From Mermis nigrescens (Eukaryota; Nematoda; Enoplea; Mermithida; Mermithidae): a stretch of 64,000 nucleotides of DNA. Under the pieces are notes generated by a model, which saw only the letters and a program-made list of their open reading frames with translations, did not search any database and was not told the origin of the DNA. This document shows positions 28,987 to 45,103 of the stretch, in pieces. Both the position numbers and the translations under genes were made by a program. Location: the NCBI GenBank assembly GCA_036768485.1, contig JAVLUZ010000507.1, positions 186,001 to 250,000 on the forward strand, given 5' to 3'. Each line of letters begins with the position of its first letter. The stretch's first letter is position 1.

Positions 28987-31007
28987 CATAGGCGTAGCCA
29001 GGGGGGCATTGGGGGCACATGCCCCCCCGAAATTTTTCAGAAATTTTGTTGATTTTTCTAGTGTAATAATTGTGTCCAGAAAATTGAGTTCAAAAAGGCA
29101 AAAACGTCACAAATTTTCCGGCGCTTCGCGCCGAGTCTTTATTATATTTATTGTTAAATAGATCTAATGAGTTTAAAAGCTTGAATTAGCTAAAATAATT
29201 GATCATTTCACATCACTTTAGTGATTTTTTTGCTCTATTTGTTCGTTGAATGAACCTGGGCATGCTTGTTGAGCATAATAGTAAAAGTGCGAAAATGATT
29301 GGGTACCAGTTTGTCGATTCTTTGCAATGCTTGTCTTTCTTTACAGGGACACATAATCCTATTTTAAATGAAAGGAATGGCCAAATTTTCTTGTTTTCTG
29401 CATATTTCCTTTTTTCTGAACTACATCTTGTTAGTAAGAAGGCCACAAATGGGCCTGAAAACGATAAGAACAAAATTATCATCGATACATCTTTTTTATA
29501 TCTAATTGGCAGCGACCCGTTTCTGCGCTTTATACTTGGCATAGGTCGAAAAACGTATTTAGCTCGGAAATTTTGTACAATGTAGGAGTTCATCAATTTT
29601 AAGTGTCTCGAGATTTGGCCGATTTTGCGAAAATTTTAGCAATAGTATTTAACATTAAAGTGTTTTTTTTACAAAATTTCTTAGGCACTGCCCCGGATCT
29701 TGCTGGGGGGTGCTTAAGCGCGCCACCGCAGACCCTCAGTCGTAAAATCTCGGTGTACATGTGCAACGAGCAGGTCCGGTCTCAGCCATGTGCAGAGTGT
29801 GCGACTGCACAGAGCCCCGGGGCACCGAAGGACCCCAAGGGGCCCCGCCACATGCACTACACAAGTGCTTCTAACATTCTTTTAACGCGGGATTTTGACT
29901 GTGATTATGAAAAATAAGCTTATTGGCTTGCTTAAATTATTAAAAATTGTAGTCAGCTTCTATGCGATATTCATATCAAAGGTAAAGAACCGAGAAGTGT
30001 TCTTTAAGTACATAGGTACCTTTACCTCATACATAACTCGTACTTTTGTACATTATAATTTGAATACCTACACGTATCGTTTTATGTTTCAAACTATATT
30101 TACGAATATGTGCTTTGCTGAAGTACAATGTACACTTGAAATATCAGTGAGTATTTCCCATTTTTGCCTCATTCATATGCGACTTTGTTCAAAATGGAAT
30201 ATATCCACATTTTTCATTATTATTTTTCGTTTTGTCTTTCTGCATATTACTCTGTTGATAATGGACAGAGCATTTAATTAATATTCCGATCTTAGCGTTA
30301 CTCGCGTTAAAGGGGCCTGCCCTATCAGGGGATCAGTTCAAGATAAAACTATTTGTTTCAACCTGAGACATATATACGTGGGCACAGTGACGGATCTGGG
30401 ATTTTGGTAAAGGGGATGTTCCACACGTGGGCGCGTGTGGGGGGTTGAGGGTATACACCCCCCAGCAGGCCAAATACTTCAGAAATCGAAATACCCATCA
30501 GAATTCGATTTTAAAAATTTTTTCGCGATTTTTTGATGCCAAGTGATAGAGCAGTAGTAAAGCTGGACCTTGGGGCGCTACAATGATTAACTATACTACA
30601 TGTTGAAGCATAGGCGCAAAGCGCCGAGCTCAGTACACTTGTACTTGAAGGCACAAGTGCACTGTACCCCTTGAAATACCAGGGCAAGCTGGGGCGAGCC
30701 AGCCCTGGGGGAGGGGGTTCGGGCCATACCCCTTGAAGTCCCAGAGCTAGCTGGGGCGAGCTAGCTCGGGGGCCCAGGCTGTTCAGCCTGAGCATATTCT
30801 CTGCTATTCCGTCGAATGTAAAGGAGACTTGAAACATCATTTTCACGGGTTTAACTAGGAAGTATGATTCATCATAAGTACACTCGTATTAAACTAAGCA
30901 ACTTCACAACCTCTTCAGAATTTGGTTCACATAATTTTAATAAACATTCACTGATAAAAGACAGTTTTAATCATTTCAGAACATTTTTCTTTGATAAAAT
31001 TTGATGC

Positions 31008-31083
31008 CTTCAAGAATCCGAACCTCAGGTTCTGAAATCGTAAGTTCCACCTTCTACCACTAGACTAGACAAAGTGTCGCTAC
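31008..31083 (-). ncRNA. tRNA-like sequence in the left inverted repeat
   Basis: On the minus strand the A box TAGTCTAGTGG fits the TRGYNNANNGG consensus, and the B box GGTTCGGATTC is close to GGTTCGANTCC. The anticodon arm TGGAA/TTTCA closes a 7-base loop CTTACGA (T at 33, anticodon TAC, Val-like), and a T-arm with loop TTCGGAT can pair with wobbles. The acceptor stem is poor. It faces out of the element. Confidence 0.5.
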
Positions 31084-31135
31084 AAAATTTATTCTCTATA
31101 CATTCCAAGGGCTTTTACACTGAATAGACATTTCT

Positions 31136-31142
31136 TTTTATA
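31136..31142 (-). promoter_or_regulatory. TATA box in left inverted repeat, outward
   Basis: Minus-strand GTCTATAAAAAG, about 55 bp before the tRNA-like sequence. The right repeat carries the same signal at 43,977-43,986 as GTCTATAAAAGG on the plus strand. Confidence 0.5.
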
Positions 31143-31268
31143 GACTACATGCATAATTTTTATCCATTAATTTGAAAATGCTGTGATCAGGTCACAACAA
31201 GTGCTGTATAGGTAGTATGATTAATCACATATTGCTCAGATACATATAACCTATATGTACACATAACC

Positions 31269-31795
31269 TCATATGTGGAAAGGGCTTATGAGAAAAATAA
31301 CGTTTTTATAAAATCGGTGTACTTGCAGCTCAGTTTTCAGACCTGTGATTACGATCTTGCCAGAACTGAAAATGAGCGCCGTAAACACTATCTGGGAATG
31401 TAAGTTTTGCGGCGCAAAACAACTCGAGTTCATACTCAACAATTTTGCGATAAGCTCTAGCGAAGATAGCACGTTTATTCGCCTATGGATATTGCCAGAG
31501 CCAACAGCGTTATGGTTTTATGAGTGGTAAAGTTAGCTTATATTCACTAGTTTGTAATAATTTGCAAATTTTCTCGTTTGCAACGTTATTTTTCTTGTAC
31601 GCTCCTTGCACCTACACAAACTAATTTTCCCGAATTGAATAACAAACCTGTTGCTTTAGGTTCTTTTAATCTAATAATCGCGTTGAAACGCTTATGATCG
31701 AACTCTACCCCATCGCAACTTTTCTTAATTTTGTATAAATTTAGGGGTTTTGTGGAAAGCCGAGCTGTTGAAACGACGTTCACAATCGTAGCCAT
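31269..31795 (-). pseudogene. TATA-binding protein (TBP) homologue of the Polinton
   Basis: TBP is the saddle-shaped protein that binds TATA boxes and nucleates transcription complexes; its core is two repeats of about 90 residues. Here repeat 1 is intact in one frame: NVVSTARLSTKP, then HKRFNAIIRLKEPKATGLLF and NSGKLVCVGARS. After a frameshift the second repeat is recognisable: NAVGSG, then SSLELIAKL, and TALIFSSGKIVITGLKTE. The F in KRF and in GLLF of repeat 1, and the F in CFAP and ALIF of repeat 2, sit where TBP has its four DNA-intercalating phenylalanines. The length of about 175 codons is a full TBP core without an N-terminal tail. The start ATG is at 31,795. Two frameshifts make this copy inactive. 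It is the last gene of the element, stopping 25 bp from the left inverted repeat, so it is inside the element rather than flanking host DNA. Confidence 0.85.
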
Positions 31796-31865
31796 TTTGA
31801 TTAATAATGATAATTAATTGAAAAACACGAGTATTCATATCCTTAAAAGTAGGACGGTTTAATTT

Positions 31866-32582
31866 TTAGAATGTACATTTGACAATCACTTTCCCAAAAT
31901 AAATGGAACAAATTCATCTAAATCGTCTTTAATATTAATTTCAATACTTGAAATATCTTTAACTAGGACAGGTACGTAGTGAGGAAAGTCGAAGGTTTTA
32001 TCGATAATATTGGGGTAGGACCCTTCTACATTTAACAATTCGTAATAAGGGAGCCGCCACATCTCCAATATTTGTGGTTCCAATATTTGCGTAAATGTAC
32101 AATACTTCAATGCCCCCAACGTGCATATTTGGTTCATTAACGCCCCATACTGATTTCGTTATTTTGTTATCTTGAAACCTAAAATTTTGGTTATTCCTGG
32201 TGGTAATGTTACTGATTTTACAAATTCACTGTACACTATTGTTTGTACTCGCTTTATCGTACTAAAGTATTTAAAAAATATTCCCTTTTTCACAATTTCG
32301 CCCCATTTAGAAGGCAGTGCATCGTCTCAACAAATTCATGTATTGAGTCGTAACACCCTAGCGGTATCTTAATTACATGATCAATCGTCATCAGCGTCTG
32401 TTATATGAATATCAGTTTTCAGTCTTTAGCGTTTCCCAATTGTGTGGGTAGATTAGCTGACATAGACCATTCCCAATCTCAGTCAATTTAATTTTTGTGA
32501 CAAATGTACGAGCAAATTCAGATGGGGTATTTTGTTTATCGCTAACAGTGTTACTGGGTAATGTTACATAAAATTGATCCAT
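31866..32582 (-). pseudogene. Polinton minor capsid (penton-like) protein
   Basis: Begins MDQFYVTLPSNTVSDKQNT, with FARTFVTKIKLTEIGNGL and IYPHNW, the typical opening of Polinton minor capsid proteins. The C-terminal part has FDFPHYVPVLVKDISSIEIN and then KDDLDEFVPFILGK. Frameshifts occur after about codon 55 and again near 32,140. The start is 55 bp after the protease stop. It would form the vertex (penton-like) capsomer. Confidence 0.8.
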
Positions 32583-32636
32583 TGATTAGCAATTTGATTA
32601 ACTAGAAATTCTTCATTTACTACTGTTGTGCTGAGC

Positions 32637-37928: not shown

Positions 37929-38640
37929 CTATCCAGATGTCTTAAATAATATTTCACTTGTATCGGTACGGTTCTGCTTTTTTGCAAAATTTTTCGTTCT
38001 TTTCCCAGATGGTCTTGTTTCTATACCAATAGTGCGATGCTTTGTGTTATTATAGCCAATTAATAAATTTTTCAATACGTCTATGTATTTATACGTGTTG
38101 TGTTTCTGAAATAGCGCCACAGCCGTTCTTTTATTAATACGATTAAACCTTTCAACAACCGATGCCTTGAGCTCGCTGTTTATAGTAAAACTCAATATCG
38201 TTTTGTTGTAGAAAGTTTGGCTTTTTATTTGTAAATTCAGTGCCAGCGTCGCTTTACTTTCTGGCTTTTCGGCCGCCTTCTAAAATTGATCTAAATGCAT
38301 TTACTATGGCATCCGCGCTTTGTTTTTTATAGGTACGCTCATGCATATTTACTAAAGACATCGATACAGTTTAGTAGAAATGTGTAACCGTTGTTTTGTT
38401 TTTTAAGCGATTGCAAATCAGCTAAATCAATCGCCCATTGCTCGTCAATTCTTGATACTATAACTTTATTGCGGGCGTATTTTTCTTTGATGGTTTATGC
38501 ACCGTGTAAGCAGGCTGTGTTTCTAACCATTTTACTACCGTGTGTCTAGGCAGTTTAACTCGGGTACACAAAATATTTGCGCCAAAGTCTTAATGGTTTG
38601 TAATATACTTTTTTCCATGTAAATAGAAATATAATGCGTT
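37929..38640 (-). pseudogene. Polinton integrase (retroviral-type, DDE)
   Basis: It would insert the element. N-terminal part: VKLPRHTVVKWLETQPAYTV, then HKPSKK. The core begins with IDEQWAIDLADLQSL (first Asp) and LNCIDVFSKYA, then SDAGTEFTN (second Asp) and the ELKASVVERFNR segment with the catalytic Glu, followed by NTYKYIDVLKNLLIGYNNTK. The chromodomain sometimes found in this family was not seen. Frameshifts near 38,480, 38,330 and 38,220 break it. The N-terminal boundary is uncertain. Confidence 0.87.
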
Positions 38641-43627: not shown

Positions 43628-43976
43628 CTTTTGAGATGACTAATCGAAAAAAAACCGGAAAAAAACTGAAAAATTGTAGCTTTTGTTGGACTTTGGACTC
43701 AGTCATATGACTAACGATGACTCATAGTTATTTTTAAAGTGAAACGATTTTTTTTTTGTATTTTTAGTATTTAAAAATGTTAAAAATGCTTAGTATGTGT
43801 CGGCAATTTTTTATAATGAGCATAAAGAATATTTTTAGCCAACAAACTAAATAATACACGATTTAAAGAGCATGTATCTGAGCAATATGTGATTAATCAT
43901 ACTACCTATACAGCACTTGTTGTGACCTGATCACAGCATTTTTAAATTAATGGATAAAAATTATGCATGTAGTCTA

Positions 43977-43986
43977 TAAAAGGAAT
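43977..43986 (+). promoter_or_regulatory. TATA box in right inverted repeat, outward
   Basis: GTCTATAAAAGG, mirror of the left copy and the same word found before several Polinton genes. Confidence 0.5.
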
Positions 43987-44034
43987 GTCTATTCAGTGTA
44001 AGCCTTGTGGAATGTATAGAGAATAAAATTTTTG

Positions 44035-44112
44035 TAGCGACGCTTTGTCTAGTCTAGTGGTAGAAGGTGGAACTTACGATTTCAGAACCTGGGGATTGAT
44101 TCTTGAAGGCAT
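44035..44112 (+). ncRNA. tRNA-like sequence in the right inverted repeat
   Basis: Mirror copy of the left one: the same A box and anticodon arm, with the B box decayed to GGGATTGATTC. Outward facing. Confidence 0.45.
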
Positions 44113-45103
44113 CAAATTTTATCAAAAAAGAAAATGTTCTGAAATGATTAAAACTGTTCCTTTTTATCCAGTGAATGGTTTATTAAAAATTATGTGAACC
44201 AAATTCTGAAGGTTGTGAAGTTGCTTAGTTTAGTACGAGTGTATGATGAATCATACTTCCTAGTTAAACCCGTGAAAATGATGTTTCAAATGTTACATTC
44301 GACGGAATTGCAAATATGCTCAGGCTGAACAGCCTGGGCCCCCGAGCTAGCTCGCCCCAGCTAGCTCTGGGACTTCAAGAGGGAGTATGGCCCGAACCCC
44401 TCCCCAGGAGCTAGCTCGCCCCAGCTTGCCCTGGTATTTCTCAGGGGTACAGTGCACTTGTGCCCTCAAGTACAAGTGTGCGAAATCGCTTTTGCGCCTA
44501 GCTGTGTAAGTGATTAATCATTCTTAGCGCCAGGATCAGCTGTTTTGCCGAGCTCAATGAGAAACGTCAAAAAATGCTTTTCGCCCTACTATCACTTGAA
44601 TTTCTGTGCTGCCCGCCTATGGGCGATTCCCCAACTTTTCCAAAAACAGTCGAAAATAGGTCCAAAAATTCGCTGCTCACGCGCAAAATGGTGTTTTTTC
44701 GACGTTTCGTATAGTCGACTTTCATTCAAAATGAGAATTTTTGACATTTCATGCAAAATTTGGTTAATTTCTTTCAGGCCAGCTAGAAAATGAATAAAAG
44801 TCATTAATATGTGTAATCCGGCGCGAAGTGCCCGAAAAATTTTGACATTATCAGTGCTTTTGCCTTGCCGTCAAAAATGATACAAAAAAATGGTTCCATC
44901 AAGTCAAAATCGCTGGATAGTACCTGGCTGGCTGACTCTTCAGTGGGAGCAATACTTCCTCGGCCCTCACACCCGCCCCCCATGTGCATGTGTGGTAGGT
45001 ACGTACATATATACTCGTACCTTAAATTTAAAGGTTTTACACTGTTAAATACTCGGGGGCAGGTACCTCGCACAGGGCCCCCAAATGCCTAAGACCGGGT
45101 CTG

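Follow-up and report, generated by a model that had tools for sequence, protein, structure and literature searches.

Polintons of the nematode Mermis nigrescens carry a gene for a TATA-binding protein (TBP), and this finding is both real and general in the genome. One such element lies in the 64,000-nucleotide stretch of contig JAVLUZ010000507.1 analysed here (the window). As the reading that best fits the sequence data, we propose, with a probability of roughly 75%, that the self-encoded TBP serves to bring host RNA polymerase II to the element's own promoters.

The element around the window TBP gene is, judged by its sequence, a decayed Polinton of about 14 kb, because it has terminal inverted repeats (TIRs) of ~630 bp and pieces of a protein-primed polymerase, and because a relative with the same gene order encodes an integrase with rve and chromodomain regions. 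Its parts are listed below in window coordinates; L050 belongs to the better-preserved relative (L049/L050, C47 near 6.015 Mb), and L079 and L080 are two loci of the window's own family.

30607-31245: left TIR; 597 of 655 columns identical to the reverse complement of 43872-44503
31269-31517, minus strand: TBP repeat 2, open piece of a broken gene; PF00352 E=5.1e-7; 65-66% identity to the TBP part of L080/L079
31586-31813, minus strand: TBP start and repeat 1, open piece of a broken gene; PF00352 E=3.1e-15; 98.7% identity to the open L079/L080 genes
31886-32585, minus strand: penton / minor capsid pieces, directly upstream of TBP; 74-90% identity to the open 251-aa frame of L050
32637-33042, minus strand: adenain-like cysteine protease pieces; 54-58% identity to the open 174-aa frame of L050
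33522-34350, minus strand: major capsid protein pieces; 63-88% identity to the open 453-aa frame of L050
36108-36525, minus strand: packaging ATPase pieces; 57-93% identity to the open 208-aa frame of L050
37271-37597, minus strand: x37271, a conserved protein with CxxC pairs in relatives (alignment A5, 7 copies)
37929-38494, minus strand: integrase pieces; 51-86% identity to the open 344-aa frame of L050
39866-43007, minus strand: protein-primed polymerase pieces; tblastn with the PF03175 proteins P0004/P0005, best E=9e-33
43872-44503: right TIR, pairing with the left TIR at 30607-31245

Read along the minus strand, the gene order is polymerase, integrase, x37271, ATPase, three small genes, capsid, protease, penton, TBP and TIR, and the order in L049/L050, where the polymerase occupies two frames, is the same. 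The penton frame of L050 immediately precedes its TBP gene; this frame has no Pfam match, and the name penton is based on sequence motifs. Several of the other assignments come from weak profile matches. The window protease matches Peptidase_C5 at E=0.016, below the cut-off, and the S273R protease of the PDB at E=0.0017, both weak; the capsid frame of L050 has a weak DJR-like domain (E=4e-4, below the Pfam cut-off), and a double jelly-roll capsid profile gave no convincing match to the window capsid piece; the ATPase frame of L050 matches Pox_A32 weakly (E=5e-4, below the cut-off). The L050 integrase frame matches rve at E=1e-13 and the chromodomain at E=8e-9, and the window integrase pieces by themselves gave no rve match. 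The polymerases P0004 and P0005, both PF03175 proteins, were the two hits among six candidates in a database search with an open 85-residue window piece. No Pfam or PDB match was found for x37271, and ten other window frames match no Pfam family above its cut-off. Rfam and tRNA searches of the window gave no match, and inspection of the decayed ends by eye showed no clean 6-bp target site duplication.

The TIR arms (30635-31245 against 43872-44479) differ by 20 mismatches and 17 gap events over 626 aligned columns, such that gap events nearly equal mismatches, contrary to several other repeats in the window. One 468-bp repeat, for example, has 53 mismatches and just two gaps, unlike the TIR arms, and a satellite-like pair (55017/54693) has 37 gap events against 111 mismatches. 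Uniform long-read sequencing error was considered as the source of the broken frames and rejected, because the indel excess is present in the TIR arms but not in some of these other repeats.

The window TBP gene lies at 31269-31813 on the minus strand, with its two repeats in the correct order and on a common strand. Repeat 1 is a 75-residue open piece (56.2 bits) and repeat 2 an 82-residue open piece (29.9 bits), and the profile search that the earlier note had called for places both above the Pfam gathering score; both also match solved TBPs in a PDB comparison. A chance match is ruled out by two same-strand repeats in the right order at E-values of 3e-15 and 5e-7. Because the repeats occupy different frames, with a neighbouring frame reading part of repeat 2 better, the window copy is a broken gene, although the whole TBP is present as sequence. 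The full-length TBP core described in the earlier note thus holds for the sequence, with both repeats present, and fails for an open gene. Similarly, of the four DNA-intercalating phenylalanines that it reported, the third depends on the frame that is read, and all four are seen by eye in two open copies of the same family. Its placement of TBP as the last gene of a Polinton, inside the TIRs, is borne out by the TBP repeats, the TIRs, the polymerase pieces and the gene order of relatives.

To find the nearest copies of the window element we used capsid genes 94% identical to that of the window, among the best 150 of 1462 candidates scored, and picked two same-family loci (L079 and L080) by coordinates as 1.2-kb stretches, beyond which the outer TIR lies. 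Both contain an open TBP frame of 183 codons from stop to stop, with the penton frame directly before it and the TIR after it. Repeat 1 of both is 98.7% identical to the window piece, and window positions 30962-31300, which cover the inner TIR and the last part of the TBP gene, match the two loci at 97% and 93% over 337-344 bp. The earlier note named absence of the gene from this position in other copies as a refutation; both same-family loci instead have an open TBP in the interval between penton and TIR. At 15 further loci TBP is on the strand of the capsid gene, at 2.5-2.7 kb from the capsid in 14 and at 6.6 kb in one. The best explanation is that TBP is probably a regular gene of the window Polinton's lineage. 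The capsid piece itself has 1462 first-look candidates in the genome, and many of the best 150 scored are open at 436-453 aa, indicating a heavy Polinton load.

A genome search with PF00352, in which the best 150 of 2553 candidates were scored, placed all 150 above the Pfam cut-off, 142 of them stop-free in the matched frame and eight with a stop. Two of these 150 are exons of the host TBP (C73:2488114-2491278), and the TBPs of the window and its nearest copies are not among them. When repeats of one gene are merged the 150 matches represent 139 places, 137 of them non-host. Counting the best 150 of each list, at least 26 of the 137 have a window-like capsid match no more than 10 kb away, where 0.8 is expected by chance. 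In 25 of these 26 pairs the distance is 2.3-2.9 kb, with 15 pairs on the same strand and 11 on opposite strands. Ten non-host loci were read, one over 10 kb and nine over ~20 kb; core Polinton genes were found at seven, a lone marginal polymerase hit (E=3e-5) at one, and at the other two, which belong to TBP family A, x37271 was all that was found beside TBP. At these family A loci (L041/L042 and L043/L044) no core Polinton gene was found within ~10 kb on either side of the open TBP, and the family A element is perhaps non-autonomous or of a different kind.

Several further arrangements were seen. About 9 kb to the left of the window is a second, different Polinton (L039, G000:C452:172001-182000). 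Its open 172-aa TBP is antisense and flanked by integrase and ATPase, the TBP-ATPase interval contains TATA-like sites facing both ways, and its capsid is seen in two frames. Relatives of x37271 (L050:5829-6218, L039:2616-2963 and L041:8967-9338) are ~110-130 aa long with two CxxC pairs, and lie close to the integrase in certain elements and next to TBP in others. Family C elements have an F-box gene near TBP (L054:823-1707 and L045:8045-8893; PF12937/PF00646, E 1e-11 to 7e-10). One family B TBP has an open fragment of another, different TBP 1.7 kb away (L047:8004-8318 / L047:9691-9999), and at L052:3695-5080 the protease piece matches at two places separated by 1.3 kb, which would fit a partial duplication of the element.

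Sixteen element TBPs were compared; family A copies that were nearly identical were omitted, as were frames that were cut or shortened. They fall into at least eight families (A-G and W), with identities of 33-57% between families when one member of each is used, and the host TBP is 31-43% identical to all sixteen. Each of the eight family representatives has two PF00352 repeats in one open intronless frame (E 5e-40 to 4e-50). The position and strand of the gene vary by lineage: the window family has it at the end of the gene series, adjoining the TIR, and family D has it antisense in the integrase-ATPase interval. In the tree of element and host TBPs suggested in the earlier note, the sixteen element proteins group against the host, P0003 and two archaeal-type proteins with support of 82/77, and this grouping weakens to 62/7 when two more rows are added, with long branches meeting; by our impression P0001 and P0002 are archaeal and P0003 is eukaryotic.

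Repeat 1 of the window is identical to human TBP at 22 of 46 positions and differs at 24, compared with 43 identical and four differing of 47 between human and Arabidopsis in the same region. The TIR arms, by comparison, have 20 mismatches in 626 columns, so that, if the arms were equal at insertion, little substitution has followed the last insertion, and the divergence of this TBP long predates the insertion of the window copy. A protein database search with repeat 1 gave three hits at no more than 48% identity, and a profile of both repeats gave seven at E<=10, all of them records without genomic context. Scans of viral contigs with TBP, the capsid piece and polymerase P0004 found no relatives. 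The polymerase alignment A2 matched 18 viral contigs, which we presume from their gene sizes to be giant viruses, and no tblastn hit to TBP was found in these 18 at E 0.5.

Purifying selection acts on the element TBP protein in the diverged lineages. Using the Nei-Gojobori method on pairs within families, dN/dS is 0.19 for the family C pair, 0.14 for D (dS 1.2), 0.22 for E, 0.14 for W1-W2 and 0.19 for W1-W3. The family B pair gives 0.06 at a dS of 4.4, which is saturated, as are comparisons of W0 with W1 or W2. The young pairs A1-A2, F1-F2, W2-W3 and W0a-W0b have few changes and dN/dS values of 0.71-0.94, which would follow either from decay of the copies once inserted or from the small number of changes.

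The DNA-contact residues are largely conserved. Taking one sequence per family, the eighteen positions that contact DNA in TBP structures match the host in 113 of 144 cells, compared with 368 of 1131 cells at the other positions. Of the 32 cells for the four DNA-kinking phenylalanines in the eight families, 31 retain phenylalanine and one has tyrosine. Some contact positions drift, with residues equal to those of the host in four of 16 rows at R196, four of 16 at V213 and six of 16 at T124. Both glutamates of the YEPELFP-type loop, which we presume from TBP structures to face TFIIB, are kept in all eight families in the alignment.

TATA boxes are enriched before element genes. We chose 39 upstream regions from labelled genes, extending for up to 120 bases (less in a few cases; two of the start codons are uncertain), and 21 of them contain TATA[AT]A[AT][AG] compared with a shuffled mean of 4.4; none of 200 shuffles reached this count. 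In three TBP-carrying elements, W1 and two family D copies (which are related and not independent), such a site precedes 17 of 26 genes and is absent before nine, and the density is 5.8 sites per kb upstream compared with 0.8 within genes (Fisher p=6e-7). The distance from the site to the first ATG in these 17 genes is 31-47 bases in 12, 75 bases in two (both protease), and 11-20 bases in three (all capsid), the last being closer than usual for a TATA box. The boxes differ between elements: W1 has TATAAAAGA or TATATAAGA at all five sites, and the two D elements have TATAAATA at nine of 13, with CT next in six.

The enrichment of TATA boxes and the conserved DNA-contact residues lend indirect support to recruitment of polymerase to the element's own TATA promoters, as the earlier note had envisaged. 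We infer that the protein is produced, binds the element boxes and cooperates with host TFIIB and polymerase II. The element TBP would bind TATA boxes ahead of the element's own genes and bend them with its conserved phenylalanine wedges, and its TFIIB-facing loop would lead to assembly of the host RNA polymerase II pre-initiation complex, the element thus supplying its own promoter-recognition factor for replication and capsid genes. Since no RNA polymerase subunit gene was found among those Polinton frames that could be labelled, the element would depend on the host polymerase II. Host TBP could also use the element boxes, so that the boxes are no proof of use by the element TBP.

A more specific version is that the TBP of each lineage is matched to a TATA context particular to that lineage, which would separate element from host promoters within one nucleus while still acting via host RNA polymerase II; the TFIIB side would be kept and the rest would have drifted, perhaps with the CxxC protein as a partner. 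We regard this version as possible but rather unlikely. Strict pairing is made less probable by the box before TBP in both open copies of the window family, TATAAATACT, which is of the D type and not of the W1 type. Box variants therefore do not simply follow the capsid lineage.

It is less likely that the element TBP works against the host, competing for TFIIB and TFIIA or for host TATA boxes and so dampening or redirecting host transcription. The retention of the DNA contacts and of the YEPELFP-type loop while most positions diverged would also be required of such a competitor, but a pure decoy has no need of the TATA enrichment at element genes.

We consider it improbable that the protein serves replication or packaging by bending element DNA, for example near the ends, with promoter use secondary. 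TBP is a strong DNA bender, and the window-family gene adjoins the TIR, both of which suit such a role; however, the family D gene is interior, antisense between integrase and ATPase, and TATA-like sites cluster before start codons. It is similarly improbable that TBP is a passenger, spread by elements that have no need of it: the dN/dS of the young pairs is what would be seen in that case, but the diverged pairs at 0.14-0.22 and the retention of TBP by several diverged Polinton lineages argue against it. Last, a recent insertion of a host exon or retrocopy at the window locus alone has a negligible chance of being correct, for although the window sequence is a TBP and is broken like a pseudogene, this origin is refuted by the open genes at the same place in L079 and L080, and it further conflicts with the low identity of repeat 1 to human TBP given the human-Arabidopsis conservation, with the location of the host exons elsewhere and the 31-43% identity of the host TBP to element TBPs (the earlier note had considered identity to a host exon), and with the intronless state of both repeats in relatives and the lack, by eye, of an A or T run after the gene end.

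Carriage of a TBP gene points to a way in which integrated Polintons might regulate their own genes. Together with their linked TATA boxes, the strongly diverged element TBPs also form a natural collection for the study of TBP-DNA co-evolution, and they show that transposons can multiply TBP genes across a genome. A basal transcription factor on an element of ~14 kb is unexpected, since the virus TBPs described in the papers covered are in large DNA viruses.

The Mermis elements resemble described Polintons and Mavericks in their TIRs, protein-primed DNA polymerase, rve and chromodomain integrase, and probable capsid, protease and ATPase genes, and differ in carrying a two-repeat TBP gene. Accessory regions flank the core genes in vertebrate Mavericks, according to one study (PMC8097293), and the openly licensed literature searched yielded no report of a Polinton or Maverick TBP. 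With large DNA viruses and mirusviruses the elements share a virus-type genome with its own TBP: 59% of mirusvirus genomes, one of which is named at 431.5 kb, are reported to have TBP as a core gene cluster (PMC10132985), three plus four families of large dsDNA viruses are reported to encode it (PMC11410667), and a megavirus encodes both TBP and its own RNA polymerase subunits (PMC11464507). Those genomes are large, whereas the Polinton is ~14 kb. Compared with the cellular host TBP, the element proteins have the same two PF00352 repeats, four DNA-kinking phenylalanines and TFIIB-facing loop, but they are 31-43% identical to it, are encoded in a single intronless frame, and are present in multiple copies on mobile elements.
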